From assembly GCA_905221615.1 (NCBI GenBank), contig CAJNDT010001269.1, positions 979,565 to 1,043,564 on the forward strand: a stretch of 64,000 bases of DNA. Reading direction: 5' to 3'. The stretch comes from Symbiodinium sp. CCMP2592 (taxonomy: Eukaryota > Sar > Dinophyceae > Suessiales > Symbiodiniaceae). The translations under genes were made by a program, and so were the position numbers. Below, in pieces: positions 12,028-55,600 of the stretch (positions are counted from its first letter, which is position 1; the number at the start of each line of letters is the position of its first letter). The notes under the pieces were generated by a model. It ran no database searches. It was not told the origin of the DNA and saw nothing but the letters and a program-made list of their open reading frames with translations.

Positions 12028-17418
<5,391 letters not shown>

Positions 17419-29652: not shown

Positions 29653-29696
29653 AACAACCAAACCATGCACATGCGCCGCTGAAAGCCGATACGCCT

Positions 29697-29709: not shown

Positions 29710-29721
29710 AGGGTTTAGGGT

Positions 29722-30700: not shown

Positions 30701-30705
30701 GCTAG

Positions 30706-33023: not shown

Positions 33024-33054
<31 letters not shown>

Positions 33055-33276: not shown

Positions 33277-34636
33277 GACAGAGGCTTCAGCCAAGTGGTC
33301 CGAGATCTTTTTGCGGCCGATCAGGTTTGGGGCTTCAGGTTCCGCAAACCTTGAGTCCTAATCGCACATCTAGAACCGCCGCCTTCAGCTAAGCTAGCAG
33401 CAACAATAATGGAGCACCTTATGTTGCACCAAAATAGGTACACTATGCTTGACGACCAGCAAAGACTGCGGCCAAGTGGCGCATCCGGAAAATGCCCTCT
33501 CTTTGGGGCCTCTTACAGTAGGGTAGGATGAAGGTGCGGTACAGCAAGTGAAGGATCCCCGGTCTAGGTTGCAGAAATTTAGAGGTTTGGTGTAATTAGG
33601 ATTTGGGGTTTCAGGGTAATAAGAAGAATGGCTTTTTGCAGCTATTCCGCCCACCTTCGCCATACCCTGGGCCCCTTCTACTCTGCGCCGGTCCTCTGCC
33701 GCTTCGAGACGGCGACAGAGGGCTGCTTTCCTGGTCTCTCTACTGCTAATATATACTGCTAATATATAGAGATCTTGGTTGCGCATGGTATATCCTAACA
33801 AGTCATAAACATACACTCTGAGGGATGCTACTTCTAATCGAAATGGCAGAAAAGCCGCTGCCATAGTGAGACCCGCTCGAACCTGCTCGTTGCTTCGGCA
33901 CCCCTTGTTTTCGAATTGGTGCCCGCGGCTTGAAAAGACCTATGCGAACCTCACCTCGAGAGATTCGTCGAGCATCACATGCCGAGTACTGGGCTCTTCT
34001 CATGGTTTTGGGTTGATGGTATTTTGGTTCTAGGGTTCATAAAACGTTATTTCCGAAGGCAGTCAATTTCCGCGAGCATGCTGCGAATCCGTGCAAGCTA
34101 CCGGCTAAGTTCAAGGTAGCATCCAGCAGCATTGCAGCTCCCATGACATAGTACTGTCCCCGACAAGTAATATCTTCTCAAGAAGATTGGCTGTCGCACG
34201 TACCATGAGCACGGCCATCGAATTGCCAGGAGGTGGGATCTGAGAACATAAACATAGCTGCTACGACATTTTCTCGCTAGGCTGACGGGTGGAAAGGCGA
34301 GATTCCCTATAGGATCCAGGATATGTTTTCAAGACGTGGCTGTTAGAGCTGTCCAGGGCCCCGGTATCCTTGTTAACGGCTGATTGCGATCTATCTTGGA
34401 CAAATCCTACATCCTCAACACTGAATTTCACAAAACCCTAGCATTTCCAAAGCCCGGGACCGGTATCTACAAGAAGCTAAGCCTCAAGCTCGCAGCTTTT
34501 GCGTTGGCAACGGCCTCGAAACCAAGCCCACTAATTCTCCTCGACCCTGGGCTTGACCCTTTGGTATTTCAGAGGGGGTCAGACAGTTCTGTTTCAGGAC
34601 GCCAAAAAGAAGCGAAAGAAGAAGAACAAGAAGTGA
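33277..34636 (+). CDS. Pieces of a possible split gene ending in KKKRKKKNKK
   Basis: Three well-bordered exon candidates. 33277-33324 has acceptor TTGCAG and donor GTTTGG and reads DRGFSQVVRDLFAADQ. 33642-33733 has acceptor GCTTTTTGCAG and donor GTCTCT and reads YSAHLRHTLGPFYSAPVLCR followed by FETATEGC. 34598-34636 has acceptor CTGTTTCAG and reads DAKKKRKKKNKK then TGA, a basic C-terminus. The phases do not join directly, so further exons are missing (one may lie near 33910-33990), or these belong to more than one gene. I do not recognise the family. Confidence 0.3.
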
Positions 34637-37600
34637 GCTGCTTGCTCAAGCATGCCCATCAACGTCGAGCATAACATGTCGGCCGGAGACGGCTTCGGAA
34701 AGACCCACATCTCTTCAACAGCAATCCCTTCACTGACCAGCCTCATAAGCATACTCGCAGAACCAGGACAATCACAGTAGCAATGAACTGTGATACTAGT
34801 GGTACTAGTGGTGACCAAAGATGAGCACCATGGCTTTATCATAGTATTCCTCACCATAGAGCCACAAAGCCTGATCATATGGCACTTTAGCCCTAAGGTC
34901 GACTTCAGGTCAAACCCAGACAAGCGGCCCGGCACCTGGAATACAATACGAAAGAATGGTATATGAATACGAAGATGTATGATATGCCCCAATCCGTGCA
35001 GACAGACCTACACACACACAATTCCTAATCACGGTCATGCTGCATAAATAGGCGCAGTGCCCCAGCTCCAATTCCTGTGTAAGCGATTACTTCAAGCCGT
35101 TTAAACCAAAGCCCAATCACCCGCAACTCTGAGACCTTGACGGCCAAACCCCGAAGTTCCCACCAGTCACGAGACCGGTGAACTGCCCCAAACCTTAAAT
35201 CCTTATAACCCAAACCGAATGTACACCCGAACTCCTCATAAGCCCCAAACCCTAAGCCCTGAGCCCTGAGCCTGATACGAAGGGGAAGGAGCCATCTCCC
35301 CCGAGCGTCGCTCTGTGGGCTCGGATGTGGCTGTAAAAGCTGGAAATCGTGGTTTTTCAGGGGTTTAGGATGTTGTAGGGGCAGGGGTTTAGGGTTCCAG
35401 GACGTGGGGATGGGCGGGGTTAAGGGATTTAGGTTTGAGGTTTTCCGAGATGGCAGGGAAGACTGTGTAAGACTAGGTTTACCCTTGGCTTCCTTTTGTA
35501 GGAAGATGAGTTTACTGTTCGAGCTTTCGCAAGCTTTAGGGTCTTTTGTTGCAGGATTCGCGGTTGGTGTAAGTAACATAATTGCGCATCGGATTCAGGG
35601 AATGACCGAGCATGCTCTGACGGAAGTTCTGAACACGAACGTTGCTGTCAGGACCGTATACCCTAACCCTCCCGTCTGCTGTAGGACTTGCACCGTAGGG
35701 TTCTGGTGCGTCCCCTGCAGTACGACCTGGTAAAGCCTTCTACCAGGTAGGCTTGCTAACGAATGAACCGGTATCGCACCAGACCTTGCCAGGCTTGTTC
35801 GAGTGCGAGTGTCAAACCGTAAACACTTAAGTGACCCTAAGCCCTTATCCCAACAAGCCTGTAAGCCGCAAACCCGGGTCATTAGTTCTCCACAGCAGAG
35901 CCTCGTTTCCTTTGGAAGCGCTCATTCCTTCGGGTGCAGGCTTCTGTTTGGGATCTACAACCCGCCGGTGCCGGTTTACGGGGTTTAGGGTTTAGGAGTT
36001 ATTCGAAAGCTACAGATAACCTGTTCTTTTGAGGGTCGGTTCAGGGCTTACCTTGCGAGGAGCAGCTTCAGTTCAAGGGGTTTTGGGTTTAGGATTCAGC
36101 CCAAAGCTACAGAAACAACTGTTGTTTTGAGGGTCCCGATGATGAGGCCCTGGCTGCTTAGCAGATCAGTATGGATATAGTGGTAGCAGTTCTCGCATGA
36201 GTTGGTCCAGAGTTCGTCTTGTTTCCCTTTGAGCTGTTGTCAAAGGCGCAGTTCTCGAACTGCAGGCAAATCTCCGATGCCACAATCCCCCACATTCAGC
36301 CCTGAAACGTTATCCTTTGATTCCCGTACGACGTAGGATATTGGACAACTAAGTCGGAGAACCCGCCTATTCCAGGAATCCCAGGGTTGGTGAGGCAAGG
36401 TCGCTCGATATGGGAATACCTCCCTTGATATGACGGATTTGATGTATTCTTGGTATGGGATTTGCTAGTCTATACTCCCTTTGGGCAGTAAGTACCCGTA
36501 AATGCAACAGTGTCACAGTGTCTGGTTTTCTGAATTCAGATATTGTGAGCTCGGCGTCGGGAGACTCCACACGGTTTTTTGAGATAGATCGCTTGAAGTG
36601 TGAGTTGGGGCTTCGTCTCGGCATGCAGGGGACCTGTATGTCGTGTTTGTTCGTGCGCTGAACAAGACTTGCGATGTCCACAACCTATTAAAGCTTCTGC
36701 AGCAACCCCAGATACCTGCCGACATCGCACGGGCTCACAGTCAGGGGGGAGGGGCGACAAATTTCGAAGCCGTTTGCAGAAGGCGCAGCTCTCTTTTGTG
36801 ACTTCAGGTACGGGCAGTCGAGCTTAGGTCTTACGAGCTAGAGGGTCAACCTCCCGCAAAACAGATGAGAGCATAGTGTACCTACAGTGAGGATCAATCC
36901 TGAAACCTGGAGCCGCTGGCCCCCCCAGGCAAAAATGAGCCTTGTTAGACATCCCTATACCCGTATGTACGTAGGACCTTTATGTACTACTTGAGTAACC
37001 CAGTAGAAGAAGGAGACTAGGGTAGGGAGAATACGAATCAAAGCAAAGGAACAGAAGAGTCGCAGCAGGAGGTACAAGCAAGAAGCCAGGAATAAGAGAG
37101 TAGTAGGAGAGTGGGAGTAGAAGAGGAGGAGTAGGGGCGTAACAGAATGAGGAGTGGAGGAGAAGAAATTAACAACGAAAGATCACTGAAACGGGAGAAG
37201 TGGAGCATGAGCATGGGAGTAAGTGAGTAGGACTGAGCAGGACTAGGGAAATAGGAACAGGAATCCGAGGAGAGTGAGAGTGGTAGAAAGCAGGAGTAGG
37301 GTAGTAGGAATAGGAGGATTAGTAGTAGACCTTGAGCTGCACAATCCTAAACCCGATGAGGAGCCTGCAGCCACGACATCTCAACCCTGAGCCATAGCTG
37401 AATAACTTAGATTGAATACTATACAAAGAGAGACCGATGAAATAATACATAAAGGTCCCTGCCACATACCCCTATACCGCTGGTGCTCGGGCCCAAAAGA
37501 CATCAATTCTAGACCCCATGTAGATACTTGGGGCCCTCTTTTGGTAAATATTCGTTTCGAGTTTGTGTACTCCAGAATACATCCTCGATGTGGAGACGGT

Positions 37601-39044: not shown

Positions 39045-39228
39045 TGCGAAAGTATATTAGTCCAGAATGCGCACCAAACTACCCTAAAGTAATTCCGTGC
39101 ACAAGCTCACACGACTGAGACCAAAGTAGCCCTGAAGTTCAGCGGCGCCTTTTCCGGTAGGGCAAAGTGGTCTTGAGCCAACGAAGGTTGGCAAAGTCTG
39201 GGGGAGAAAGGGAGGTGTTATTTTCACA
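39045..39228 (-). repeat. Copia-1 3' LTR
   Basis: 184 bases, TG...CA ends, differing from the 5' LTR only at 39190 (G here, A at 47288). It holds five AAAGT motifs. The purine-rich GAGGAGGCG just inside it (sense strand) is the likely polypurine tract. Confidence 0.95.
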
Positions 39229-39581
39229 CGCCTCCTCGAGACTAAAGTAAAGTACTTTATTCTCGTAAACTATATAACCCCTATACATGTACAGATGTGA
39301 GCTCACGCAGAAAGTTTTGCACGGCCGTGGAGAAAAGTTGCTGTGCAACAGATGCCTCCTATCTACAGCATCTCAAAAGTTGCGTCTGTGAAAAGTTCGT
39401 TGTGCTCGTTGTGCACGTGTCGTGTCTGCGCACGGCACATCAAAGTGCAGCGTGGCCCAAAAGTGGTTGGCCCATTAAAGTGCAGCAACCAAGGTAGGAC
39501 CAAACGTCAAAAAACCGTCGAAAAGTGTGCTTCAAAGATGGCCAACCATATAGGCGAAAAGTGCCATCGTCACAAAGTGGT

Positions 39582-40559
39582 TTAAAGCCGAGGCCTTGCC
39601 ATGGCCTGCCAAAGCTCCCGAGGGATAAAGTCCCAGGTCTGAGACTGCGTGGTGGCATCCCAAAGTTGCCGGTTGACTGGCAGGTGGAAAAGTCTCCACC
39701 ATGGCGAATCCTGTCGGCCCATAAGTGTGTTCAGAGCATCACACAAAAAGTATCCATCTCTGCCCGGGTGACAAAGTATCACCATTGACTGAAGCATGCA
39801 GCGCTGATCATCATTTGCAGAGTTGAGCAAAAGTTGCGAATCTCTTGGAACTGCTAAAAAGTAATCCAGATAACGGCGGTTCCATACTTGAAAAGTATTC
39901 GTCAGGTATTGGAAATACCTCAAAGTTGGGCGGAAGCCCACGGTGCAAAGTGCACCGACATTGGGATGTCGAATACCAGATCGAAGCTGTATGCTGAGGC
40001 CGAAACTGAAAAGTAAAAGTGCACTCCTGGGGCTCCAGGACCAGTTCCAATGGCCCTCCGACCAAAAGCTGTCGGCACCAGAAAAGTGCAAAGATCCACC
40101 CGAAAGTAGGGTCTGCATTTTCATATTCATCATAGCCACCGGAAAAGTTGTCCACAGCATAAAGTTGCAAAAGACCTGTGGTGAAAGTGTGGCCGGGACA
40201 CCCATCAGCATGGTCTGAAACACCCACTGAAAAGCCGTGGCTGCAAAGAGCACCTGCTCTGGTGGCGTGTAAAGTCCCGGGTGTTCTCTCCCAGGGAACA
40301 ACGTCTGCAAGATGCGTTCCAAAGTGAGTTGCTCACCAGGTGGAAAGTGCATCGGGTGCAGAGTGCCGGGCCTCCAAAGTTGCTCGACCTGTCTACCGTC
40401 AGCCAACATTTGCACAAAGTCGGTCGGATAGAAAGTCGACGCATATGTGCTAAAGTTGGCTTGGGGCCGAAAGTCGCCCGCAACATCTTCCAGCAAAGTG
40501 GTATTGTCCCCACCAGGACGAAAGCCGGGCGGAAAGTAGCCCTGGCTTTTTGGAGCCAT
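39582..40559 (-). CDS. Copia-1 second extra ORF (ORF-Y), unknown
   Basis: 325 residues from ATG 40559 (MAPKSQGYFPPGFRPGG). The frame is open further upstream, but the A of this ATG is also the last base of the previous ORF's TGA stop (TGATG), so coupled reinitiation is a natural reading. It has several aromatic and hydrophobic stretches (for example FCNFMLWTTFPVAMM) and ends in RELWQAMARPRL. No recognised domain. It lies between pol and the 3' LTR, where some LTR elements carry an envelope-like or other accessory gene. I have no sequence evidence that it is an envelope protein. Confidence 0.55.
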   Translation of the reverse strand: MAPKSQGYFPPGFRPGGDNTTLLEDVAGDFRPQANFSTYASTFYPTDFVQMLADGRQVEQLWRPGTLHPMHFPPGEQLTLERILQTLFPGREHPGLYTPPEQVLFAATAFQWVFQTMLMGVPATLSPQVFCNFMLWTTFPVAMMNMKMQTLLSGGSLHFSGADSFWSEGHWNWSWSPRSALLLFSFGLSIQLRSGIRHPNVGALCTVGFRPTLRYFQYLTNTFQVWNRRYLDYFLAVPRDSQLLLNSANDDQRCMLQSMVILCHPGRDGYFLCDALNTLMGRQDSPWWRLFHLPVNRQLWDATTQSQTWDFIPRELWQAMARPRL

Positions 40560-40948
40560 CACGGCTGTGGGTCTCGCCCAAAACCGAAAAGTCTCCGAAG
40601 GATGGCCCTCAAAGTCCTCCTTGCAAAGTTCACAACAGGGGGCCCGTACTCGATAATCCCAATTGCACCTGCGAAAATGCAAAGTGCAACGAAAAGGAAT
40701 AAGAAAAGTCCTTCAACCCACGGGGACAAAGGTCCTCTCTCCGGCTGCGGCGGCAGAGGCTGGCCGCAAACCTGAAAGTCCTGCGGGTTGAGAAGTGGAT
40801 CAATGTCCACCGTTGTATGGCCACCAAAGTGACCTGGCTCACGGCCCAAAGTGCGGCCGAAACCTTGCTGGCGATCCAGCGCTCTCTGGAGCAAAAGTCG
40901 GATCAACCGAATTTCTCCTGGAGAAAGTGGCAGCTCTGGCCCCTCCAT
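40559..40948 (-). CDS. Copia-1 first extra ORF (ORF-X), single-pass membrane protein
   Basis: 129 residues from ATG 40948. The N-terminal half is soluble (MEGPELPLSPGEIRLIRLLL). A clear hydrophobic segment GLFLFLFVALCIFAGAIGII follows at about residues 80-101, then a basic tail (RRTLRAILRRLFGFG). No signal peptide at the start. It ends in TGA overlapping the ATG of ORF-Y as TGATG. Function unknown. The position after pol and the membrane segment resemble accessory genes of some LTR elements, but that is analogy only. Confidence 0.55.
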   Translation of the reverse strand: MEGPELPLSPGEIRLIRLLLQRALDRQQGFGRTLGREPGHFGGHTTVDIDPLLNPQDFQVCGQPLPPQPERGPLSPWVEGLFLFLFVALCIFAGAIGIIEYGPPVVNFARRTLRAILRRLFGFGRDPQP

Positions 40949-41574
40949 CTTGAAAGTCTTGCAGAAAGTTGCAGTTGCAACAGAAAGTCAGAGAGCCATG
41001 GCACGCAAAGCGAGCAAAGGACCGAAGTAAAAGTGAAAACGGTTGCGGCGAAAAGGCGCAAAGTTAAAAACCAAAACCCACGACAAAACCCGAACACCCT
41101 GAACGGGAAAGTCAAGTGAGCTTACATATGTACATTAAAAGTGGTGCCGTTGCACCGAAAAACCATCATCGGAAAAGTCATCCACCATCAAGGTTTCACG
41201 GTAAAAGTTTCTTCCTTTTCGGAACGGAGAAAACGGAAAACAGAAAGATCATCTTCAAAGTTGGTTCCAGAAAATGAAAAGTTCCAGCGACGAGCGAAAG
41301 TCGAAGACATGTCGAGACTGCACAAGCAAGCAAAAGTACATGTCCGCAAAAGTACATGTCCGCAAGAACGTGATTCTCTCAGCTCTCAAAGTCTTCTTCT
41401 CTGATGGCGGTGCAAAGTATCCTTCGCGATGTACTTCGTAAGGACATCTGCTGGGTTCAAAGTCCCAAGAACTTTCTTGATCCTAACCATACCTCTTGCA
41501 CGTAAAGATATCGTAACTCAACGTGCTTCGTTTTACGGCTTGCGCCGAAACGTGAGGCAATGCTTTTGCCAACG
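40949..41574 (-). pseudogene. Copia-1 remnant of RNase H end, and non-coding spacer
   Basis: Just past the pol stop, other frames carry the missing C-terminal pol pieces: FTDSNVGKSIASRFGASRKT with KHVELRYLYVQE, then, after another shift, RIKKVLGTLNPADVLTKYIA. These are the end of a copia RNase H. The segment between DSDWAG and FTDSN, which should hold the SSAEAEY Glu, is absent, so about 60 codons are deleted. About 41100-40949 is spacer without a recognised ORF. Confidence 0.75.
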
Positions 41575-44289
41575 TTACTGTCTGTGAAAATCATGGCATC
41601 CTGCCCAATCGCTGTCAACAAAAATGTTGATATCTATTGCTTTGTGCTGCGGTGAAAGTGAGAGGGTTGGTTGCATTTTCTGCTCAAAGTGCTTTGTCCC
41701 TGCCAGGTACTTCAAAAGATGCTTCACCTTTGCTTCGTGTTCTGTGGTTGGTGCAGAAAGTCCTCGGCTCAACTCCTTGACAGCATACATGATGTCAGGG
41801 CGCACGCTGGAAAGCCACAAAAGTTGGCCCACAGCGCGCCGGTAGCGCTTGTGATCCTCAGGGTCCAAAGGTTCACAGTCGAGCTGCTTCCTCAAAGCAT
41901 CCGTTCCTGGCGCAAGTGCCTGCCGGCACTGTTTCAAACCGTAAAGCTCTAGCATCGTATCAATGTAGGATGGGCTCATTCCTACAGAGATGAAAGTGGA
42001 GGTGCGCTTCAGGTTGCGGCCTAGAAACGACGAACTCTGACCTTCATCCAAAGTACCTGTCACCTTAAGCAACAAGTCCTTCTGAAGATCCCGGATCAAA
42101 GTCGAAACATCAGCCCGCGAACCGAAAAACATCAAGTCATCCACATACGCCAGAACGTAAAGTTGCTTGCTGTCATGAACATAAAGGTTCGGGTCCGACT
42201 TCATGCGTCGAAAGCCGTTCTTCTCCATGACAGAGGCAAAGTGCTGCTGCCAAAGCTTAGGGCTGTGCTTAAGCCCGTAAAGGGCTTTCTTAAGCTTCCA
42301 CAAAGTGCGGCCCTCTGGATAGAATTCCAGAGGGGGAATGACATAAAAGTCACCGTCGACCAGGGCATGAAGAAATGCCGTCGAAATGTCTCCGATCGAG
42401 ATGTGCCATCCCTTCGCCACAGCCAAAGTCAACAACAGTCGAAGTGTGGTTAAGGACGGGGTTGAGGCGAAAGTCTCATCCTTGTCTTCCACAAGTTGAG
42501 TGTAACCTCTCCCCACAATCCTGCAGCGCACAGTCCCGTCAGGCTTGCGCACTTTAACCCACTTCGTGGAAATTGCAGACCGCAAAGTCTCCTCAGAGAC
42601 CGACTCAACTGAGACTTCGTCGAAAACATGAAAGTCACGCACCGACTTCATCTCTTTTGTCATGCCTGCAGCTTCCTCTTCACGTGTGAACTCGGTCTGG
42701 TACCAAATGTGCGGATTCTCAAGTGTCTTCATCAACAAAAGTTCTTTCTCATCTTGATTCACCGACACCGGTACTTCAAGGTCCTGCTTCGTTGTCACAG
42801 CAGAGACACGAAAGTCACACACGCGAAAGCGCTTCTTGGTCTTCGCAAAAGTTACGCTGGCCATTCTCTGCACCTTGCTTGTCCCAACAGGCAAAGTCTC
42901 CGACGTACGCTTTGTCGGAGAAGAAGCAGACGCCTCCTCAAGTCGAGGCCTTGTAGCCGCAGGTTGCGGTAAAGCTGCTTCTGTTGCGGACCGTGGTTGG
43001 CCCTGTGTCTGCTGGTCCAAAGTGACGTGTGGCGGCTCAAAAGTGTCAAGGTCAGGAGGCGTAGCCCAAGACTTCAAGTCCGACAAGTCTTCTCTTGGCG
43101 GCACTGCCTCTGGCTCAACACCGCTCAAGCCGTCACCAAGCAAGTCTTCAACTTCTTGCAAAGCTTCCGGTGCAAGTGGCTCAGTCGACTCGTGCTGCTC
43201 AAAGTTCGAAAGGTCTGCTGCTGTCGCCTCCTCGGACCGCTTGGCTTGAGGAAAGACAAAAGTGTCCGTCTCAGCCTTCGAACCGGTGGGGTCCCAAGGG
43301 CGCGCAGAGATCGACTGCAAAAGGGCAAGGTCGGCTTGCCGGGAGGGCGGGTGGCGCTTGACACTGCGGGTCTTGAAGACTCCAGTGGCGTCAGCAACAA
43401 AGTGCTGATCAGACTCAGTGTCCTTGCCAAGCCAAACACCAGGCACAAAAGCTGCACGACCCTTCTGCGGATGCGGCTTGCGGAAAAGTACTGTCTCTCC
43501 AAAGCGACAGATAAAGCCGGCATATTTCTTACGCCAGCGCCGCTCAAAAGCCGTCGTTCCTTCCGCGTTGCAAAGGTAACGGTTCACAAGCCACTGCGCG
43601 TGACGAGCCAGCCAAGTAAACAAAGCTGAGTGCACCGAAAGGTCAACGTCGTAGCGCTCAAGGATCTCAAGGCGCAAAGCCTTGATCTGTCCGTACAAAG
43701 TGGCTTGCATGTTACCCACGCTGCCTTGCGCTTGCTTCCAACCGACGGGCGTCTTCCGAAAGGAAAGTCCACCAACCTCACCAGTGACAGAAGTTGCAAT
43801 AGCGAGGAGGGCGGGTTCGGGGTCCGCTTGCAACACACCGAAAGTTCTGCCCGTTTCAAGCACAAAGCGACGAAGTTCAGCCTGTGAATAAGGTGTGCGG
43901 GCCTTGGTGGGGATCACAACAGAAAGTGCCATGCCCGAAAGAACATCGACAACATTCAAAATCGTGATCTGTTCCTCACCAGGCTTGTCGCCAAGAAAGC
44001 TAAAGTCCATCTGCAGCACAGGCTGCTTCAGGGAAAGTCTGCGACTCTTAGCCTGCTTGCTCTTGGAACGCACACAAATTTCACACCAGGACTTAAAAGG
44101 CAAGTGCGTCAACTCGTGTTCAAGCCGCTCCGTCAAAGTTGGCTCGCCCGGTTGCTTAAGTCCGCGAGGGCGATGCGCAACGTAGTCCGGAGCTTCCGGC
44201 TCGCACTCAACAAGTTGCAAGTCTGCCTTCTCAAAGCAAGTGGCTCCGACAAAAGGAGAGCTGATCAAGTGGCGCCGCGCTTGCGCCAA
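41575..44289 (-). CDS. Copia-1 pol: integrase and reverse transcriptase, truncated RNase H
   Basis: About 904 codons; there is no ATG at the left end (TTG 44289, with TGA just upstream), so expression needs a frame change inside the 25-base overlap with gag. Integrase zinc-binding HELTHLPFKSWCEIC is followed by the core: QMDFSFLGD and VLQADPEP carry the two Asp. Where the Glu is expected the sequence reads QGSVGNMQATLYGQ, with Gly. RT has WVKVRKPDGTVRCRIVGRGY, DISTAFLHA, KKALYGLKHSP and catalytic YVDDLMFFG (about 42120-42155). RNase H stops right after VDSDWAGCHD at a TAA. Integration and RNase H functions of this copy are therefore doubtful. Confidence 0.9.
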   Translation of the reverse strand: MAQARRHLISSPFVGATCFEKADLQLVECEPEAPDYVAHRPRGLKQPGEPTLTERLEHELTHLPFKSWCEICVRSKSKQAKSRRLSLKQPVLQMDFSFLGDKPGEEQITILNVVDVLSGMALSVVIPTKARTPYSQAELRRFVLETGRTFGVLQADPEPALLAIATSVTGEVGGLSFRKTPVGWKQAQGSVGNMQATLYGQIKALRLEILERYDVDLSVHSALFTWLARHAQWLVNRYLCNAEGTTAFERRWRKKYAGFICRFGETVLFRKPHPQKGRAAFVPGVWLGKDTESDQHFVADATGVFKTRSVKRHPPSRQADLALLQSISARPWDPTGSKAETDTFVFPQAKRSEEATAADLSNFEQHESTEPLAPEALQEVEDLLGDGLSGVEPEAVPPREDLSDLKSWATPPDLDTFEPPHVTLDQQTQGQPRSATEAALPQPAATRPRLEEASASSPTKRTSETLPVGTSKVQRMASVTFAKTKKRFRVCDFRVSAVTTKQDLEVPVSVNQDEKELLLMKTLENPHIWYQTEFTREEEAAGMTKEMKSVRDFHVFDEVSVESVSEETLRSAISTKWVKVRKPDGTVRCRIVGRGYTQLVEDKDETFASTPSLTTLRLLLTLAVAKGWHISIGDISTAFLHALVDGDFYVIPPLEFYPEGRTLWKLKKALYGLKHSPKLWQQHFASVMEKNGFRRMKSDPNLYVHDSKQLYVLAYVDDLMFFGSRADVSTLIRDLQKDLLLKVTGTLDEGQSSSFLGRNLKRTSTFISVGMSPSYIDTMLELYGLKQCRQALAPGTDALRKQLDCEPLDPEDHKRYRRAVGQLLWLSSVRPDIMYAVKELSRGLSAPTTEHEAKVKHLLKYLAGTKHFEQKMQPTLSLSPQHKAIDINIFVDSDWAGCHDFHRQ

Positions 44290-47099
44290 TTGTCAGCGTG
44301 CCAAAAGGGCACCTCTTCCGTGTCTGGCCTCACAACCAAAGTCATGCGACCGTCGCCAAGCTGCTCTTCAAAGTGCGGACCCTCAGGCACAAAAAGTGTG
44401 TTCCGCTGTTCGTAGTGGACACGCACCCAGCAAGACGGAAAGTCAAGCCACAAGTCGTGCGTGTACGGCTGGCCTGTTGCCGGGTCCTTCTCCAAAAGTT
44501 GTTCAAGCAAAGCCTTTCGAAAGTCTTCCAGCGTTCCTGAAGAGGTCTGCTCAAGGCGCAGACGGAAAGTGTCCTCGGTGCTTTGCTCCTTGAGGCCTTT
44601 AGTGGGTTGCTTGAAAAGTGGTTGTGGGGCCTCTGCTAAAGGTTCCTGCTGCTGTTCAAGTGGTTGTGGTTTGCGTGCAGGTGTGGGTTCAGGTAAAGTT
44701 GTCTGTTTTCCAACCAGCTTGCGGCCAGTGGGCTTGGAGGAAAGTTTAAAAACAGTCTTGCCAACAAAACGTTCAGAAGCTGGGCCCTTTGGGTTAGCTA
44801 CCTTACGCCAGTTGTCGGTGAAAGTCTCTTTTCCGCCATCTGCGTACTCAAAGTAGGTTACGCGTTCGTCTGAAAGGTCCTTCAGTTCTACAGGGCGATC
44901 TTTCGTCCCTTCGGGAGAAAAGAAAGTAGCTCTCGCTCTTTTGTGTATGCGGGTCAAAGTATTACCCGAGAGCTCCCATTTATCAATGTGATACTGGACG
45001 ACAGGCTTAAAAACTCGGGCCACAATGGTACCTTGGGCGCTCTGTGTGTGAAAAGTGTTACACACAACCTCAAACTCTTCCCGGTTGAAAGGTGCCAAAG
45101 TGGGCCTCAAGAAAAGAAGTGAACCATGCCTAGGGATGGGCACCTTGTGTCCATCCGGTGTTTCCAAAGTGTTCGCCTTCTTAGAAGAAAGGTTCACGTC
45201 AAAGCCTGACCTCAAAAGTCTGCCAACGGACACCACACAGTAGGGAACGTCGCAAACGTAGAAGTGTAAGAAACAGGGCTGGCCCTCAAAGTCAACCTTC
45301 ACAAGTCTCCTTCCAAAGACCGTCAAAGGCTGACCTGAAATGCTCCTCAAAGGTGGAGCCTTACCTGTAAGTGGCAGAAGTGGCCACTCTGAGGCAAAGT
45401 CCTTCGGGCAACAGTGAGTTGCAGCACCTGAATCAAAGAGGATCCACGGCTCGGTGTCCTCCAAAGTCGAAGCAATCAAATGCTCCTCCAAAGCAACATC
45501 CTTGAAAGTCGTATTCAAATTCTGAAGACCAAGATCCCCAACACTGAAAAGTCGTTGGTTCTCATCCGTGCGACCATTCAAGGAGAAAGTCTCAAGCGGT
45601 GCCATACAGGCCGTAGGCTCAAAGTTCTCACACTCTCCGAAACCACCAAAGCTGAAGTCTACAACTCCGTTCGTCATCCCATCAACTCTGAAAGTGTTCC
45701 CCAAACCAATGTTGCCGAGAACAACAGCCGACATGAGCAAAGTGCTCGGGCTGATGCTTGCTTTAGCCTTAGGCTTGGCTTTGGGGGTTGAAAGTCCAGG
45801 TGATCCTTGCAAAGTCACAGCCGACACGGGCAAAGTTGCCGCGCCGCTTGACGAGGAAGCCTCTTCCTTGGGCTTCGCCAAAGTTTCGGCCTTCGCCGAA
45901 GGAGCAGCCTCTGAAGGCCAAACTTCTGAAGTAAAGTCCGAAGACCAACCCCAAGGGTCAACATCCCAGGACCAAGCATCCCAAGACCAAAGTTGATCAT
46001 CCCAAGTCTGATCCCAACTGTTAGGGTCGTTGTAAAGTTCCGTCACTGCGTTGATCGCCCAATCTGACCAATCGTCCTCACCAAAGTGAGACCAATCTCC
46101 TGTGTCCTCCGACGGGTAAAGTTCTTCACCTTCAACAGCTGAAACACGGTTCAAAGGACAGTTGCTCGAAAAGTGACCTGTCTTACCACACGTCCAGCAA
46201 ACCGAAGTAGAACTTGAAGTGGGCTTTCCTTTTCCTTTTCCTCTTCCTTTTCCTTTCATCATAAAGTTCCAATGCTGTCCTCCTTTTCCAAACGACTTCG
46301 AAAAGTCCTTTCCTTTTCCTTTTCCTTTCTTTCCTTTTCCTTTCCACAAAGCTGCCGCTAAGGCACCAATGTCCATGGGAGCCGAAGCTCCACCAGCAAA
46401 AGTTGCATTCGCCGAAGTTTGTGCAACTGGGTTCATCAAAGGTCGTGATCTGTGATACTCAAGGATAACTTCTCGAACCTGAGCATAAGTCGCCAAAGTT
46501 TGGGCATTCAACCTAAGGTGTTGTTGTAAAGCTCCAGAAGTCTTGTTCAGCAAAGTTGCAACAAGAACACCATCAGGCAAAGGTTGTCCTGCTTGTCGTT
46601 CGTATCTACTCTTGATTGTTTCCCAAACATTAAAGTCCTGCTCAAAGGTTGCTGGGTTGAACTTAAAGTCCAACAGCTGCGTCAAAAGTGACGTGCTCCG
46701 CGTGGCTCCTGGCAGCGAGAACTTCTTGTAAAGTCTCCTCCAGGTCTCGAAACCGTTCGAATCCTCATTCTGCCGAACAACAAGTTTCGCCGAATCTTTC
46801 ACAAGTTGAGAAATCAGGTAATGTAGTTTTCGGGAGAAAAGTACTCGGTTGGCGGTCTGTTCCGGGTCTGCATCACCTGTGTCCAAAGTGACTGTTAGAT
46901 CAGCATCTGTAAAGTCACCTTGCGCTGCCGTTCGCATTTCGGCATTGTCCATCAAAGTCACAGCACCTACCTCGAACATCGAAATGCACGCTTTAAAGTT
47001 CCATGACCATTCTTCCCAGTCTGCTGGGTTCCCAGAGAAAGTCTCTGGCAGAGGAAGCCGAAGCTTTCCTGTAAAGTTGTCTTCACCTCCTAGTGCCAT
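44265..47099 (-). CDS. Copia-1 gag and protease
   Basis: 944 residues from ATG 47099, 43 bases after the 5' LTR. Gag core begins LPETFSGNPADWEEWSWNFK. The Gly/Lys-rich stretch (KGKGKKGKGKGKD) precedes one CCHC zinc knuckle, CWTCGKTGHFSSNCP (46155-46199). After a Trp/Asp/Ser-rich spacer comes the aspartic protease WILFDSGAATHCCP (about 45408-45440). The C-terminal 300 residues are Pro/Gln/Lys-rich. The ORF ends in the other frame, with 25 bases of overlap to pol. Gag would build the particle and package element RNA; the protease would process the polyprotein. Confidence 0.9.
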   Translation of the reverse strand: MALGGEDNFTGKLRLPLPETFSGNPADWEEWSWNFKACISMFEVGAVTLMDNAEMRTAAQGDFTDADLTVTLDTGDADPEQTANRVLFSRKLHYLISQLVKDSAKLVVRQNEDSNGFETWRRLYKKFSLPGATRSTSLLTQLLDFKFNPATFEQDFNVWETIKSRYERQAGQPLPDGVLVATLLNKTSGALQQHLRLNAQTLATYAQVREVILEYHRSRPLMNPVAQTSANATFAGGASAPMDIGALAAALWKGKGKKGKGKGKDFSKSFGKGGQHWNFMMKGKGRGKGKGKPTSSSTSVCWTCGKTGHFSSNCPLNRVSAVEGEELYPSEDTGDWSHFGEDDWSDWAINAVTELYNDPNSWDQTWDDQLWSWDAWSWDVDPWGWSSDFTSEVWPSEAAPSAKAETLAKPKEEASSSSGAATLPVSAVTLQGSPGLSTPKAKPKAKASISPSTLLMSAVVLGNIGLGNTFRVDGMTNGVVDFSFGGFGECENFEPTACMAPLETFSLNGRTDENQRLFSVGDLGLQNLNTTFKDVALEEHLIASTLEDTEPWILFDSGAATHCCPKDFASEWPLLPLTGKAPPLRSISGQPLTVFGRRLVKVDFEGQPCFLHFYVCDVPYCVVSVGRLLRSGFDVNLSSKKANTLETPDGHKVPIPRHGSLLFLRPTLAPFNREEFEVVCNTFHTQSAQGTIVARVFKPVVQYHIDKWELSGNTLTRIHKRARATFFSPEGTKDRPVELKDLSDERVTYFEYADGGKETFTDNWRKVANPKGPASERFVGKTVFKLSSKPTGRKLVGKQTTLPEPTPARKPQPLEQQQEPLAEAPQPLFKQPTKGLKEQSTEDTFRLRLEQTSSGTLEDFRKALLEQLLEKDPATGQPYTHDLWLDFPSCWVRVHYEQRNTLFVPEGPHFEEQLGDGRMTLVVRPDTEEVPFWHADNWRKRGAT

Positions 47100-47124
47100 G
47101 TCGTTCTACCAAAGTTCCGTGGAG

Positions 47125-47142
47125 CTTTCAGCTCCGCTACCA
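47125..47142 (-). promoter_or_regulatory. Copia-1 primer-binding site
   Basis: Directly after the 5' LTR the sense strand reads TGGTAGCGGAGCTGAAAG. TGGTAGCGGAG is one base from TGGTAGCAGAG, the complement of animal initiator tRNA-Met 3' ends, so a tRNA-Met primer is likely. Confidence 0.75.
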
Positions 47143-47326
47143 TGCGAAAGTATATTAGTCCAGAATGCGCACCAAACTACCCTAAAGTAATTCCGTGCAC
47201 AAGCTCACACGACTGAGACCAAAGTAGCCCTGAAGTTCAGCGGCGCCTTTTCCGGTAGGGCAAAGTGGTCTTGAGCCAACGAAGGTTAGCAAAGTCTGGG
47301 GGAGAAAGGGAGGTGTTATTTTCACA
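47143..47326 (-). repeat. Copia-1 5' LTR
   Basis: 184 bases, 183 identical to the 3' LTR. In sense it runs TGTGAAAATAACACC...ATACTTTCGCA. It must hold the promoter and polyadenylation signals, which I cannot pinpoint. Confidence 0.95.
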
Positions 47327-47375
47327 CACACACACACACACACACACCGTACATACATACATACGTACGCAGGCA
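47327..47375. repeat. CA/CATA microsatellite, right side of the Copia-1 insertion
   Basis: CACAC target duplication followed by the rest of the CA run and CATA units. Confidence 0.9.
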
Positions 47376-49033: not shown

Positions 49034-52000
49034 ATGAACTCGGGATCAAGCCAAGATACGACAATGACTTTCGGTGCCGATGTGGCAGCGCCAGCCGTTG
49101 GTGAGTCAACAGCTGATGACACAGTGGTGCAATCCGTTGATAGCTCCACGGAAGATGACAAAGGTCAATCTTCTGCGCTTGCCATTGCAAAGGCAGTTCC
49201 CAAGGTGAAAGCAAAGAGTCTACCAAGAGCATCTACGCCTTCGCGTCCGACATCCACAGGTTCGAGGACGGGCAAGGCTCCCGAACGACGAGCCGAAGCG
49301 TCTGGTTTTCAGGCACCTCGGACTACGTCCAGGGCCAAGGACAAAGGAGTGAAGACCTTGGAAAAGAAGTCAAGACCATCATCTTCGAGAAGCTCTTCAG
49401 CACGATCAAGGACTTCGGCTACTCGTGGGCGTGACAAGTCCATGACTTGGAATCGGATGGTTACCAACCAACCACGCGATGCTGACGATCTGGATATGAC
49501 TCTGGACACTATCCCAGCACGTGGTGATGCGTCATCGGTGGCCACGCCAGCCATAGCCGATGGTCCGAATGCTTATCAGGAGCTGACGATTTCGCAACAG
49601 TTCGAAGCATCGAACCTTGCACAGCAGATGTACTATCGCAGTCAGATGCAAGAATACGAAGGAGTCGTCCAGACCCTGATGGACAAGATCAAGGAGATGC
49701 AACAAGAAGATGAAGGATCTGGAATTCGCATTGAAGAATTGGAACGACAACGTGACCATGCATGCTTAGCCATGAGGCACATCAACAATGTCAATCAGGA
49801 GATGAAGCGGGACTATGAAACAGCTTTGTTTCGCATGGATGAACAGAACTCTGCTCAACAACGTCAAGCACATGCCGTTGCCGAGGAGTTAGCGCAACAG
49901 CTACACGTGTTCCGCACGGAAGCAGCCACTAACTTTGTGCAGTTGGAGGCAAGAGCGCAAGGCGATGGTGAGCTTATGGCACGTGAGTATGAGAGTCTGA
50001 CTCATGAACTTCATGAACATGCCAGAGAGAACTTGGTCCTCCGGTCAAACACAGCAAGTTCGGAACAAGCCTTACAAGCAATGCAGGAACGATTCCACTT
50101 GGGCAAGAACCAGGAGTTGCGGGCCGTGAACGAGATCCAAGGGCTAGCTGGAAACAGCGCAGCCATTGATCAAGAACGACTTCGGCTTCGCGAACGTCTT
50201 GGTGAAGAGGAAGAGTACCGCAAAATGGCTGTGAAGAGGATGCAAGATGCAGAGGACCGACTTCATCAGAATGAAGATCATGCAAGGCGAGCATTGCCTA
50301 CCTTGCACGACGAGCTGAGTGAACTCAGGAAAACGCTCAAAGCACAGGAAGATCTTCAAGCGAGGACACGCAGCGAATTGGAGGCAGCGCGAAACTCCAA
50401 TTACGGAGGAGCGACACGGCCTTCAAGCATGCCCATGTCTTCGAGGACTACTGAGTCTGGCTGGGAGCACGTAGGAAAGGAAGTAGTGCCTGCATTTTCC
50501 GTAGGAGGTGAGGTACGATCCCCTGAAATACGGTCCCCAAGTCAAGTTAGTCCAGTCGCCAAAGAGAAGTTCGCATTCTCGGAATCGGACAAGGGCAAGA
50601 ACCTTGTGATGGATGGAATTCCATTCACCGGTGGAAACTTCTTCACTGGCCGCAGTTCAATGCCAATCGTGGCGGATGCAATGCCCGAGCACTACGTGCC
50701 AGGTATTAGCAGCCCAGCACTCGCGCGTTCCACGCCTAGTGCAGCCACTTTGTTCGGCATACCAAGCGGATTTCATGGGAAAAGTGATGCGGCAGCCGTG
50801 CGTGATCGACAGCTACGCGAACTCTTGGAGGATCGCGGGATGTTGGGATCGAAGTCCACAGCATCTGCCAGCTCCTCAAGACCTGTTGGTGTCGACGGCA
50901 TTATCGCATCTACGAAGGGCAACGACCTCATTGGTCCCCCTGTCGCCTATGACGATTCCATCCATGAGGCAAGGAGGCGTCAGATCGAGAAAGAGGTCGC
51001 GGAACGGTACGAAGAGAAGATTGCCGATCTGCGAAGCGAAGTACTCAAGGCCCAGAAAGCCGAACAGCGTCTCAGAGCTGATCGTGATGAGTGGAGATTA
51101 TTCGCTGAAACGATTCAGGAGGATAATGGAGACGATGACGGTGACGAAGCTGGCGACGAGAATGAAGATGGAGAGCATGAGGAAGGAACCGGCACGGGGT
51201 ATGACCCTCCTGACCCGCCTGATGATGATGATGATAAGAAGAGGAGCGGTGGAGGCAAACCTGAATCGGATCCTGGCTCTCATGCGCGTGATCCTGATGG
51301 AGACGCAGATCCTGAAGTCACGGAGGTGAGGATTTCCAGGAGGGAGGCCGACAAAGTGACCGTTCCTCCATGGCCTACTCTCACTCACCTCAACAACTGG
51401 CGATCTGTATGCACGGCGAATGTCTTAGGAGCATCAGCCGATCCAAATCATGAGGATTGGATGTTATGGCTGGCACCTGCATTCAACCCATTCCCAGATG
51501 TCGAAGCACTGAACGATTCAGGACACAAGAAGTTCAAGAGCGTAGACGTCAAACTGGGGATCGCTATGGTCGCAATGCTACGCGCTGGTGGTGACAAATC
51601 TGCTGATCTGTACCTGGAGGTAAACCGGAAGGCCAATGATTACATCAGCAGGCCCGAAGGGAAGATCATCAAAGGACGACAAATCATTGCGATGATGTAT
51701 GAAAGTTTTCGAACGCATGATCGTCTCGACATGATCATCACTCTCGAGTATCTGGTGAAACTCCAGTACCAAGGCGACAACAAGCTTCATACGTTCAAGC
51801 AGACGTGGTTGGAAGTTCTGGGACGGATGAGGCCAGAAGACATACCATCCAAAACTGCTCTCCGTGATTGCTTGTACAGCAAGATCAAGGACTCGCCCGC
51901 AATGAAGATGGAGTTGGGCATGCACTACGAACACTTGCCCTACAATCATGAAGACCGATCGTATGACAATTTGATGAAGATCATTGACCGTACCATCATG

Positions 52001-52600
52001 CGGAGACGAGAACAATCAAATCTCACTCAGACCCAAATTGGCTTGCGCCAGATGCTTGAGGGCAAGGATTTGCTTGCTGCACCGGCCAAGGTACCTGAGA
52101 AACCAACGCCTAACGCAGCTCCATCCGCAAAGGTCAAGGCTTCGCCGACCAAGCGGATAAAGCAACACCTGTACTACCTCAAAGCAAAGCGAAGAGTCAT
52201 GCGAAGACCAAGCCAAAGCCCAAGAAGAAGACGAGGAGTGAGTCAGCGGACAACAGAGGTGACAAGAGCAAGAAGCAAATCCGCTGCAAGTTCCATTTCA
52301 CAGATGCAGGGTGTCGAAATGCTGACAAGTGCCCATTCAGTCACTCGAAGAAGACTCCAGAGCGACCCTTTACGCCGAGGACGAGAACTCCAAGTCCATC
52401 TGGAGGAGGAGGAAACAGGATATGCTACTCGTTCAAGAACACAGGTTCGTGCTCAAGAGAGAATTGTCCTTTCAAGCATGAGGCAGCAGCTACCCCAGCT
52501 CCGGAACCAAAGGCAAAGGCTAAAGCCAAATCCGAAGCGAAGGCAGCTCCAGCAAAGCCGAATGCCAAGGCCAAGGCGCTCCCTGCGGCACCCGCCATAA
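49034..52600 (+). CDS. Copia-2 gag-like protein (first frame)
   Basis: 1188 codons from ATG 49034. In order: a Ser/Arg/Lys-rich region, a long coiled coil of about 250 residues (for example IRIEELERQRDHACLAMRHI and QQRQAHAVAEELAQQLHVF), a second charged coil, an acidic Asp/Pro linker (PPDPPDDDDDKK) and a gag core with VPPWPTLTHLNNWRSV and LLWL-type blocks up to about 52100. After about 52150 this frame becomes Arg/Ser nonsense, while frame 1 carries two zinc fingers and continues into pol. The true product is therefore probably a Gag-Pol fusion by a -1 shift near 52111-52260, or the copy has an indel there. Large coiled coils are unusual in copia gag. Confidence 0.75.
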   Translation: MNSGSSQDTTMTFGADVAAPAVGESTADDTVVQSVDSSTEDDKGQSSALAIAKAVPKVKAKSLPRASTPSRPTSTGSRTGKAPERRAEASGFQAPRTTSRAKDKGVKTLEKKSRPSSSRSSSARSRTSATRGRDKSMTWNRMVTNQPRDADDLDMTLDTIPARGDASSVATPAIADGPNAYQELTISQQFEASNLAQQMYYRSQMQEYEGVVQTLMDKIKEMQQEDEGSGIRIEELERQRDHACLAMRHINNVNQEMKRDYETALFRMDEQNSAQQRQAHAVAEELAQQLHVFRTEAATNFVQLEARAQGDGELMAREYESLTHELHEHARENLVLRSNTASSEQALQAMQERFHLGKNQELRAVNEIQGLAGNSAAIDQERLRLRERLGEEEEYRKMAVKRMQDAEDRLHQNEDHARRALPTLHDELSELRKTLKAQEDLQARTRSELEAARNSNYGGATRPSSMPMSSRTTESGWEHVGKEVVPAFSVGGEVRSPEIRSPSQVSPVAKEKFAFSESDKGKNLVMDGIPFTGGNFFTGRSSMPIVADAMPEHYVPGISSPALARSTPSAATLFGIPSGFHGKSDAAAVRDRQLRELLEDRGMLGSKSTASASSSRPVGVDGIIASTKGNDLIGPPVAYDDSIHEARRRQIEKEVAERYEEKIADLRSEVLKAQKAEQRLRADRDEWRLFAETIQEDNGDDDGDEAGDENEDGEHEEGTGTGYDPPDPPDDDDDKKRSGGGKPESDPGSHARDPDGDADPEVTEVRISRREADKVTVPPWPTLTHLNNWRSVCTANVLGASADPNHEDWMLWLAPAFNPFPDVEALNDSGHKKFKSVDVKLGIAMVAMLRAGGDKSADLYLEVNRKANDYISRPEGKIIKGRQIIAMMYESFRTHDRLDMIITLEYLVKLQYQGDNKLHTFKQTWLEVLGRMRPEDIPSKTALRDCLYSKIKDSPAMKMELGMHYEHLPYNHEDRSYDNLMKIIDRTIMRRREQSNLTQTQIGLRQMLEGKDLLAAPAKVPEKPTPNAAPSAKVKASPTKRIKQHLYYLKAKRRVMRRPSQSPRRRRGVSQRTTEVTRARSKSAASSISQMQGVEMLTSAHSVTRRRLQSDPLRRGRELQVHLEEEETGYATRSRTQVRAQERIVLSSMRQQLPQLRNQRQRLKPNPKRRQLQQSRMPRPRRSLRHPP

Positions 52601-55600
52601 GATTGTGCCGAAGGTGGAATCCATCAGCCCCGGCGATATGGAAGCGATCTTCAAGACAAGATGAGGAGGAGTCAGATTGTCCATCCGTTGACAGCGACGC
52701 TGATTCGGATTGTTCAACAGACGACGAATCCTCGGGACCGACTACGTCGACCCGAAAAGAGATCAAGCGTAATGTGACATTCGCCGATGACGTGAAGTTC
52801 ATTTCTTCGTGTCCTAGAAGATCGAAGAAGGACAAAGAGCGGAAGGTGAAGTACGTCGACATGGAAGCGCTTGTCAACGATGAGGATCGCGCCGTGAATT
52901 TGGAATTCGCCAAGCACAAAGCGAGATTGAGGGCACAGATTATGAGAGACATGGTTGACGACGATGATGATCAATGCGGAGATCGAGTTTCATTCGTACG
53001 AATCCCAGGAACGTCTCGGGTGGAAGAAGTCTCCTTCTACGACGGTGAGGATTCCATCGTTGAGCGTGAACTCGATGCTGCACACAGCAAGCGGATCATC
53101 AATCAAGGTGTATGCAAATGCATGGTTCAACCAGTCATCCTCAAGAAGAAGATCAAGTTTCTCATGGACACTGGGTGTGGCCATGACCTCATATCTCAGA
53201 AGAAGATCGAGAAGCATAGTCTTGAGACACTCGTGACTCCAGAGCCCATATCATTTCAGACAGCAAATGGAATCACCGATACCGATCTTGTGTCGAATTT
53301 CCAGACTGAGTCGTTCGAGGAACCGATCAACGCTTACGTGTTGGACGACACACCATCGGTGCTTTCCATAGGCAAGAGATGCATGAACTTCAACTACGGG
53401 TTTGTGTGGCCACCCGGAAGGGAACCATTCATGATCAACCCGCAGGGCAAGAGGATATCTCTGTTCGTGAACGGTGACATCCCGTACATTCGCGCCGGGA
53501 GTTCCAAGTCACTTGTTCATGATGATCCGGAGGCCAAAGCGATCACCGAAATCTTCAAGAGTGTGCTAACCGCGGGTGATGTTGACGTCAGTGTCGCAGC
53601 TGCCGCTGAAGCTGCACCGAGCGAGATTGAAGCAGAAGAAGAAGGTGACGATCATGAACGACCTCCTGATCCTGAACCCCAAGAACCTCCTATAGAAGAA
53701 GTGCCAGAGTCCGAGGCCGGACGACCTCCGGACGACGACGAAGGAAAAGGAGTGGGTGAAATTCCATTGGACGGTGACGATGAGGTGATCATTGATGTGG
53801 AAGGCGACGGTGCGCCGAGCCGCAAGGCCAGAGTCGGAACACTGAAAGCCGAAGCCAAGACGTTGGCACATCTGTGTACTCATCGCTACCGCAATCCATA
53901 TTGCGAATCGTGCATACGCGCGAAGATGAAGCACTTGCGGACACAACGAGGTGCGTTTCAACGTGTGATCAAACACTGGGGAGATCTTGTGACGTTCGAC
54001 TTCCTCGATATGCGCAAGGCCGCCGAAGCAGGTATCGGACTCGATGATGGAGCACGTGAAGTTCTAGTCATCAGAGACATCGCCACCAAAATGATCGCAG
54101 CGATTCCCACGGCTTCAAGGAGCACTGACGAGGTCGTCATGGCCATCAGACGCCTAATGGGAAGACGCAAGATTCATATGGCGTATAGTGATGAAGCACC
54201 AGAGTTCGATTCAGCTATGGCGCAGTTGAAGATCGTGATAGATCATTCCCTTCCAGGGAAACCCAGTAACAATTCACTCGCTGAACGATCAAATCAAGAA
54301 GTGATCAACACAGTCGCAGCATCCATGCTACACGCCGGATTACCCGCCCAATACTGGTCTTTTGCGCTGAATTGCGTGATGCAGAACCTCAACATCGAAG
54401 ACGTGGAGGGCGACGGTGATTCAGCATGGAAACGTATGACTGGAAAGGACTTCGAGGGAAAAGCCATACCCTTTGGGGCCAAAGTCTTCTTCAAGCCTAC
54501 GGATACAAGGCCGAAGACATATGGCAACAAGTTCGATCCAAAGGGGATCCCAGGCATTTTCGCCGGATACATCATCACTGCTGGTCAAGGATGGTCCAAG
54601 AAGTATCGCGTGTGGGACATGAAGGAATTTGCCAATGCGAACTTGTCGATGGACGCATCTGTTCCCAGAAAGTTGATGAGACCGTACGAGACAGAAGTTA
54701 TCTACTTCCCAGAGGAGATAACGTTTCCCCTGAAAGCCGAGTACGAGAGGATGAACTCAACCATTGAGGGACTAAGGGACAACGTTGACCTTGCTGGCAA
54801 GGAGATAAAAGACGTCGATGACGGGGATGACGGTCCGCCTGGAGGAAATGGTGGCAACGGGGATGATGATGATCAAGATGGTCTTCTTCCTCCACCGGAT
54901 CCCGGAGAAGATCCCGACTTACAGGACATAGATCCATCTGACATAGAGACGGAGCCGCCTGGCGAAGTCTTCAAGTCAGCAGAACATGAAGCTATTGATG
55001 CTATAGGAGACAAAAGACTCGAAGAACTAGACGAAGAACTAGGTCTACGTGCAGCACCGCCTCCTTCTGAACCAAAGGTCACTGGAAAAGATCGACGATC
55101 GCCCCGCGAAGTCGGTCCAACCGGTAGACTCATCCCCGAAGGAGACATCGAAGAACCTGGAGAGATTATCAAGATCTTGAAAGAAAAGAAGTTGGCTCCC
55201 GAGGAGATTGAACATTGGAGTACGGGGAAGAAAGGGGACGGCATTGTATATCTCACCGATGATGGTGAAGCCTGCAAGATCGACAAAAGGGGAGTTCCGT
55301 ACAAGATCCGAAGTGATGGTCGACGAACTCTTCCTACACGGCGACCTATCCATTCCTATTCTCCGGAAGCATGGAAGAAAATGAGCGAAGCGGAGAAGAA
55401 GGCAGCGTACAAGAAAGAAAAGCGAGACAAAGCTCGAGTTGCCAAGAAAGACCGGAAGAAGGCTGTGATAGGAAAGAAGATAGTCACCAAGATTTTGGAC
55501 AACATGATCTTTCCCAAGATTGTTCCATGTGAAGAAATTGATCTGCAACTCAACGTGTCCATTGACGACGACGATGGATGGTCCTGGGCACAATCCTATG

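Follow-up and report, generated by a model that had tools for sequence, protein, structure and literature searches.

Copia retrotransposon families of a Symbiodinium genome carry dense, family-specific sense-strand words that co-vary with a residue of the Gag zinc knuckle

For retrotransposons and retroviruses alike, it is still an open question how Gag picks its own RNA, and the answer has usually been sought in a structured leader. Labels of self are known from bacteria: in Neisseria and Haemophilus, DNA uptake sequences are short, exact tags, dense in coding DNA and specific to the lineage, that are read by a lineage-specific receptor. Retroviral knuckles keep exposed bases in pockets: in Moloney murine leukemia virus (MoMuLV) the single CCHC knuckle of the nucleocapsid reads a linear site of 4 nucleotides (nt), UCUG, whose G is taken by Trp35 in a cleft of Leu21, Ala27, Trp35 and Ala36, and the knuckles of human immunodeficiency virus type 1 (HIV-1) use Phe16/Ile24 and Trp37/Gln45 (PMC7599994). 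Among RNA viruses, MS2, hepatitis B virus (HBV) and picornaviruses have dispersed packaging signals, in which many cooperating sites along the genome share a coat-protein motif (PMC6281560). The Gag of a long terminal repeat (LTR) retrotransposon must also choose its own RNA; packaging of Ty3 genomic RNA needs the Ty3 zinc finger (PMC4974528), and Ty1 Gag lacks any recognizable zinc finger; its binding to diverse RNAs is of low specificity, Psi being preferred in competition (PMC4974528, PMC8396678). Here we describe a Copia-type LTR retrotransposon of Symbiodinium sp. CCMP2592, located at 39045..47327 on the minus strand of a window of 64,000 nt (contig CAJNDT010001269.1, positions 979,565 to 1,043,564; all coordinates are those of the window), whose sense strand carries the pentamer ACTTT, i.e. 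AAAGT on the plus strand, 162 times.

The element shares features with these systems and also departs from them. As in MoMuLV, a linear site of 4-5 nt is found together with a single CCHC knuckle; however, MoMuLV has a few UCUG sites in a structured 5′ leader, whereas here about 170 sites run along the whole element, and both the word and a knuckle residue vary between sister families. As in the dispersed packaging signals, there are many sites with one motif along the whole element, and we infer that these too are recognized. MS2 displays stem-loops that vary around a motif, whereas here an exact linear 4-5-mer shows no sign of structural display and is so dense that it sets amino-acid pairs in the open reading frames (ORFs) tested. 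The uptake sequences share with it the character of a dense, exact self-tag that differs between lineages, but they are double-stranded tags of whole bacterial genomes that serve uptake, while the word here marks one strand of a single mobile element. No report of a dense, linear, family-specific retrotransposon word was found among the literature titles and abstract openings listed, a coverage outside which most subscription papers fall, and the available parts of PMC10309623 and PMC5890265 contained nothing bearing on the word.

Within the element there are only 3 copies of ACTTT on the antisense strand, and the remaining 55.7 kb of the window hold 56 AAAGT and 48 ACTTT, which is background. 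An earlier note on this DNA had reported a one-strand density that stops at the element borders, with 27 AAAGT in the 960 bases of 39781-40740 and five in each LTR; our recount returned the same numbers, with 0 ACTTT on the plus strand of that segment. The direct repeat is 185 bases long and not 184 as given there, and of the proposed recurrence every 36 bases or so from LTR to LTR, the enrichment throughout was borne out and the even pitch was not: mean spacing is 51 nt, and density rises from 11.9 per kb in the reverse transcriptase (RT) ORF through 18.7 for gag to 26-32 in the leader, the part after RT, the extra ORFs and the tail. Motif density thus follows protein-coding constraint. Base composition predicts 8.4 copies of ACTTT in the element, dinucleotides 30.1 and trinucleotides 55.8, the latter two values being inflated by the motif itself. 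Since none of the pentamers that differ from ACTTT by one mismatch exceeds 29 copies, and the flanking bases show no strong preference except some avoidance of T, the word is an exact 5-mer.

Spacing is not uniform. With local density kept, about 35 of the 161 gaps would be expected to be shorter than 16 nt and about 35 to measure 28-48 nt, whereas 4 and 64, respectively, were observed, as might be expected of a site having a footprint and a preferred pitch. In predicted local folds, ACTTT is more accessible than the average pentamer (0.242 compared with 0.109), but no difference was found from the same sites with shuffled flanks (0.248 ± 0.009). Presentation of the sites in stem-loops was a candidate that these folds did not bear out.

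The proteins do not account for the word. When codons were permuted synonymously (1000 permutations per ORF), no permutation attained the observed count in any of four ORFs: 53 ACTTT against 17.6 ± 3.1 in the gag ORF (944 amino acids (aa), 44265..47099), 32 against 10.8 ± 2.4 in the RT ORF (904 aa, 41575..44289), 30 against 8.5 ± 2.2 in an accessory ORF of 366 aa (39582..40682) and 10 against 2.1 ± 1.2 in another of 129 aa (40559..40948, containing a hydrophobic stretch), all on the minus strand. The permuted sequences thus keep between one fifth and one third of the word copies observed in coding parts. The word falls in all three codon phases (phases 0/1/2: 23/17/13 in the gag ORF, 15/8/9 in the RT ORF), as the earlier note had said, and its view that protein sequence and codon bias are insufficient and that the motif arises by base choice withstood the protein-preserving shuffle it had proposed. 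In the gag ORF the word is used at most places where the protein allows it: 17 of 19 [NDHY]F pairs, 23 of 26 T-[FL] pairs and 13 of 23 leucine contexts. The corresponding figures for the RT ORF are 8 of 9, 15 of 18 and 9 of 26. The pairs T-F, T-L and [NDHY]-F are themselves enriched in the element proteins, the reversed dipeptides are not similarly enriched, and all 12 relatives of the 366-aa protein bear the same dipeptide mark. These pairs are more simply read as a consequence of the word than as its cause. The gag ORF shows to an extreme degree how a signal in the nucleic acid can take precedence over protein sequence.

We drew 15 full copies of the element from 41 LTR matches in the same genome (1.098 Gb). 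Every one of them keeps the enrichment, with 166-177 sense ACTTT (18.9-20.3 per kb) and 3-6 antisense, so that the second outcome named by the earlier note as refuting, related copies devoid of the enrichment, did not occur. In 13 of the 15 the 600-nt flanks are not enriched; the other two, L009 and L022, are adjacent to each other. These two copies lie nearly end to end in opposite orientations (contig C2535 of the same genome, 135269-153279). Several copies are near-identical (L014-L016, 99.3%), so the copies are not independent. In six pairwise comparisons of blastn-aligned parts, the motif was intact at 93.7-97.1% of sites compared with 78.0-89.1% for other pentamers. Among codons that keep their amino acid, third positions within motifs were unchanged in 130/130, 131/131, 131/132, 130/131, 109/110 and 109/110 cases, i.e. 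0-1 changes per 110-132 codons, as against 92-96% unchanged (4-8% changed) outside motifs and 93-97% for same-ending codons outside motifs. Conservation above neighbouring synonymous sites, which the earlier note had suggested looking for, is therefore present, and because motif sites and synonymous positions are conserved above their surroundings the cause is selection and not mutation: ACTTT is under purifying selection.

Dipeptides allow a word to be sought in proteins alone. We ranked all 1024 pentamers by their dipeptide pairs, taking significance from shuffles. In a first set of 73 proteins (shuffle p up to 0.015) ACTTT was the top word in 13 and ACTTC in 9, and the remainder, many of them short or RT-only, had other top words or none that was significant; the window RT ORF itself ranked ACTTT only eighth. 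In 95 further proteins ACTTC was top in 18 and ACTTT in 10, these including P0214 and P0216, one per word, which are far from the family; P0143, P0146, P0159 and P0216 score below 4.8, the highest value among 500 shuffles of one protein. A directional score, which sets each pair against its reverse, gave 9.4 for ACTTT (null maximum 4.2, five rows of the ACTTT clade) and 7.5 for ACTTC (null maximum 4.6, five rows of the sister clade). A quick tree of 70 rows contains a clade of 11 (Shimodaira-Hasegawa-like approximate likelihood ratio test, SH-aLRT, 98), of which 9 have ACTTC as their top word and two are short proteins; ACTTT rows stand on both sides of this clade. Direct conversion of T-[FL] sites to T-S between lineages was not among the commonest outcomes listed. 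The method is confused by low-complexity runs (P0144, P0168 and the AACAA-like lineage of P0043, P0164 and P0166). Dipeptides also hint, from proteins alone, at further words in the P0144, P0168, P0164 and P0166 lineages, for example ACTAC/ACTAT in P0168 and [NDHY]-S in P0144. In the same genome, the candidate matches that were scored are only 43-61% identical to P0144 and 30-47% to P0164.

ACTTC had been predicted in this way before its DNA was seen, and the DNA then confirmed it. DNA of the ACTTC clade in the same genome (87-88% identical to P0141) includes five loci, L024-L028, that each carry 173-177 sense ACTTC, 3-6 antisense and 5-6 sense ACTTT; they are 97.6-99.1% alike and are thus recent copies of one family, and the fragment L029 agrees with them (115 ACTTC). 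A deeper lineage, related to P0157, has the word ATTG: four locus pieces from three elements (L034-L037, with L035 and L037 overlapping) carry 147-176 copies with 11-20 antisense, and a preceding T is avoided in the three pieces tabulated. For this lineage the protein method was only partly right, with ATTGG equal to or slightly above ACTGG in one scoring and ACTGG ahead in the directional one; the supposition that all words start with ACT, with ACTGG or ACTGC guessed for the third lineage, was refuted when its DNA showed ATTG. Synonymous permutation again fell short of the observed counts, which were 109 against 33.4 and 109 against 32.5 for ACTTC, 136 against 80.0 and 166 against 96.8 for ATTG, and 94 against 30.2 for ACTTT in L014. 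All nine stretches tested from the three families show a depletion of gaps below 16 nt and an excess of 28-48-nt gaps. Short gaps number 3-6 where 34-39 are expected for ACTTT, 20-22 against 42-45 for ACTTC and 27-31 against 51-54 for ATTG, and given this milder depletion a minimum distance of 16 nt holds for ACTTT only. Three Copia families of one genome therefore each carry their own short word, ACTTT, ACTTC or ATTG.

The word co-varies with one residue of Gag, with at least one exception. The Gag zinc knuckle of the window element, the proposed reader (46158..46199, minus strand, residues 301-314; Pfam PF00098 matches residues 300-315), has Phe directly after its zinc His (46170-46172). We aligned 15 Gag-Pol proteins, 7 of the ACTTT family, 4 of the ACTTC family and 4 of the ATTG family, in which L014 stood for the family of the window Gag; this residue is F with ACTTT, T with ACTTC and W with ATTG. 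Over 1694 comparable columns there are 18 fixed differences between the ACTTT and ACTTC proteins, of which the one directly following the zinc His alone lies before residue 600; under a strict gap rule it is also the only fixed three-way difference. A looser gap rule gives 19 ACTTT-ACTTC differences, still with one before residue 600 when P0160 is left out. In a wider set of 26 knuckle-bearing proteins, taken from rows P0001-P0070 and P0121-P0170 and filtered for a basic or Gly-rich stretch preceding the knuckle, F accompanied ACTTT in 7/7, T accompanied ACTTC in 12/13 and W accompanied ATTG in 2/2, with A (P0160), I (P0144), L (P0164) and V (P0143) as singletons. We take the MoMuLV and HIV-1 residues Trp35, Ile24 and Gln45 to be those right after the zinc His, and the family with W at this place is the one whose word ends in G. 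The sister-family words and the matching knuckle difference go beyond what the earlier note saw.

We consider it probable that the word is a family-specific RNA signal read by the Gag knuckle for coating and packaging, with the RNA substrate, the binding and the packaging being the parts that we infer. The exact word, placed in the sense strand most often 28-48 nt apart where coding permits, would label the genomic RNA, and possibly the plus-strand complementary DNA (cDNA), as belonging to its own family. The single CCHC knuckle of that family's Gag would read it, the residue after the zinc His (F, T or W) setting the difference. Gag made from its own RNA would encounter RNAs of related families in the same cell, and while one weak contact of 4-5 nt would be insufficient for a choice, about 170 spaced contacts could provide avidity, with Gags side by side, so that Gag would coat and package its own RNA among the related-family RNAs of the same nucleus. 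Selection would then keep the ORFs, the LTRs and swapped accessory segments rich in the word even at a cost in protein sequence, and a switch of word would require a knuckle change with about 170 sites following, perhaps through mixed states. P0143, with protein signals for both ACTTT (4.0) and ACTTC (3.8) and V in its knuckle, could on a speculative reading be such a state. More generally, we lean towards the view that LTR retrotransposon families bear a genome-long, switchable self/non-self code, in which one exact word of 4-5 letters recurs about 20-30 times per kb of the RNA and corresponds to a single pocket residue in the Gag knuckle. Such a code would diverge through word and reader changing together, would keep families in a shared nucleus apart and would be strong enough to dictate amino-acid pairs in the proteins of the element. 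If so, the answer to how Gag picks its RNA would be written openly along the RNA, sister families would be natural matched pairs of word and reader, and such codes could be read from proteins alone, as the ACTTC prediction suggests.

Several observations weigh against reading by the knuckle. P0160, a partial protein of the ACTTC lineage, has A after the zinc His, and adding it leaves no fixed ACTTT-ACTTC difference before residue 600; P0166 carries T without an ACTTC signal; and no word is confirmed for P0143 (V), P0144 (I) or P0164 (L). With the looser gap rule and P0160 left out, pol residue 1660 (V, F, C) becomes a second three-way column. By our reading of the 70-row tree the correlation amounts to about two changes, and as the rows are related the knuckle is indicated as the reader but not proven. 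The sites, being no more accessible than with shuffled flanks, lack a special structural display, and in Ty1 and Ty3 the essential cis sequences lie near the ends (PMC4974528). The evidence for conservation is also weaker in a whole-element alignment, where the motif was intact at 76-100% compared with 70-96% in 13 comparisons; it was ahead in all 13, once by merely 0.1 point, and in 5 of the 13 the per-base substitution rate of motifs was above background. We give preference to the blastn-aligned comparisons, since as much as about 1.5 kb cannot be aligned at the DNA level between copies.

Another protein of the element, i.e. the 366-aa accessory protein, integrase or RT, could read the words for export, stability, cDNA synthesis or integration, which we think unlikely. 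Its attraction lies in the accessory ORFs downstream of pol, which are related between the ACTTT and ACTTC families, with another ORF of about 350 aa lying there in the ATTG family, and in the 17 further fixed ACTTT-ACTTC differences after residue 600, among them residue 1660 with its three-way pattern under the looser rule. However, the strict rule leaves the knuckle residue as the sole fixed three-way difference, the accessory region cannot be aligned at the DNA level between copies with the same word, and a linear site of 4-5 nt suits one CCHC knuckle, to judge from PMC7599994. It is distinctly improbable that a host factor reads the words, for RNA export, anti-silencing, splicing suppression or chromatin, with families having drifted to alternative factors: the strict strand bias and whole-element coverage would fit control of transcript export or splicing, but a common host reader would forbid different words in one genome and ACTTC copies with 5-6 ACTTT each, and it does not predict the Gag knuckle difference.

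That the word is made by a bias of mutation or repair, or by the context of a DNA modification, is very hard to credit, strand-specific though the word is and spread over coding and non-coding parts alike. The motifs are conserved above their surroundings, the word is dense neither in the second Copia-like element of the window nor in the 600-nt flanks of 13 of the 15 copies, words differ within one genome, and base-resolution mapping of 5-hydroxymethyluracil (5-hmU) in Breviolum minutum gave no sequence motif (PMC11071213); such a bias would have to be element-encoded and family-specific. Purifying selection together with different motifs in one genome contradicts the mutational process that the earlier note had listed among its candidates and makes genome-wide methylation or silencing contexts unlikely, whereas the site for an element protein and the RNA packaging code on the same list are favoured. 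An amino-acid or codon preference of the proteins as the source has next to no credibility; the enriched T-F, T-L and [NDHY]-F pairs would fit it, but density is highest outside gag and RT, permutation retains only a minor part of the coding counts, and the reversed pairs are not enriched likewise.

The element has the parts of a Copia retrotransposon. Its 5′ LTR (47143..47327, minus strand) and 3′ LTR (39045..39229, minus strand) differ by one base and have TG...CA ends inside the repeat. From sequence, a likely primer binding site adjoins the 5′ LTR (47131..47142, minus strand), and it resembles the 3′ end of initiator methionine tRNA (tRNA-iMet); a likely polypurine tract lies immediately 5′ of the 3′ LTR (39230..39237, minus strand). 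The gag ORF encodes Gag with its knuckle, presumably a protease-like motif, and then the beginning of the integrase region; no Pfam integrase domain matched the element proteins, and we take a stretch upstream of RT in the translation to be HHCC-like. The RT ORF matches RVT_2 (PF07727, E 7e-34) and encodes a Copia-type RT. In the window copy pol is broken, with gag-pol split over two overlapping ORFs and an RNase H remnant in shifted frames (41404..41591, minus strand); other copies in the same genome have a single long open frame through the gag-pol/RNase H region. Among named proteins, the closest relative comes from Symbiodinium microadriaticum (P0002, 88%), and scans of the viral_contigs and genome_contigs collections yielded no relatives.

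The accessory protein family downstream of pol is found at 39582-40682 in the window, at 828-1814 in L014 and at about 8058-8768 in L024. The 366-aa protein is 36-69% identical to its 12 relatives and about 29% identical to that of L014; it has no Pfam match, and a profile search of PDB gave no convincing relative (best E 0.15). Another ORF, of about 350 aa, occupies the same place in the ATTG family (L036, L037). Although blastn could not align the 366-aa ORF segment with three other compared copies, it holds about 28 motifs per kb, and those parts of the accessory region that could not be aligned carry 28-34 per kb in the examined copies; a shorter one of 187 bases has 10.7.

Elsewhere in the window, a second and very different Copia-like stretch (49034-63573, plus strand) contains ORFs of 1188, 2440 and 1120 aa with long extra coding parts, about 22-26% identity with Copia relatives in RT/RNase H for most of the matches, and no dense word like ACTTT. 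Hexamers such as AACCCT, AAACCC and GGTTTA are enriched at about 5000-13000 and 27000-37000 and resemble the TTTAGGG telomere repeat, and a dense TAC trinucleotide repeat occupies about 15001-18000, with 114 TACTA in 3 kb.

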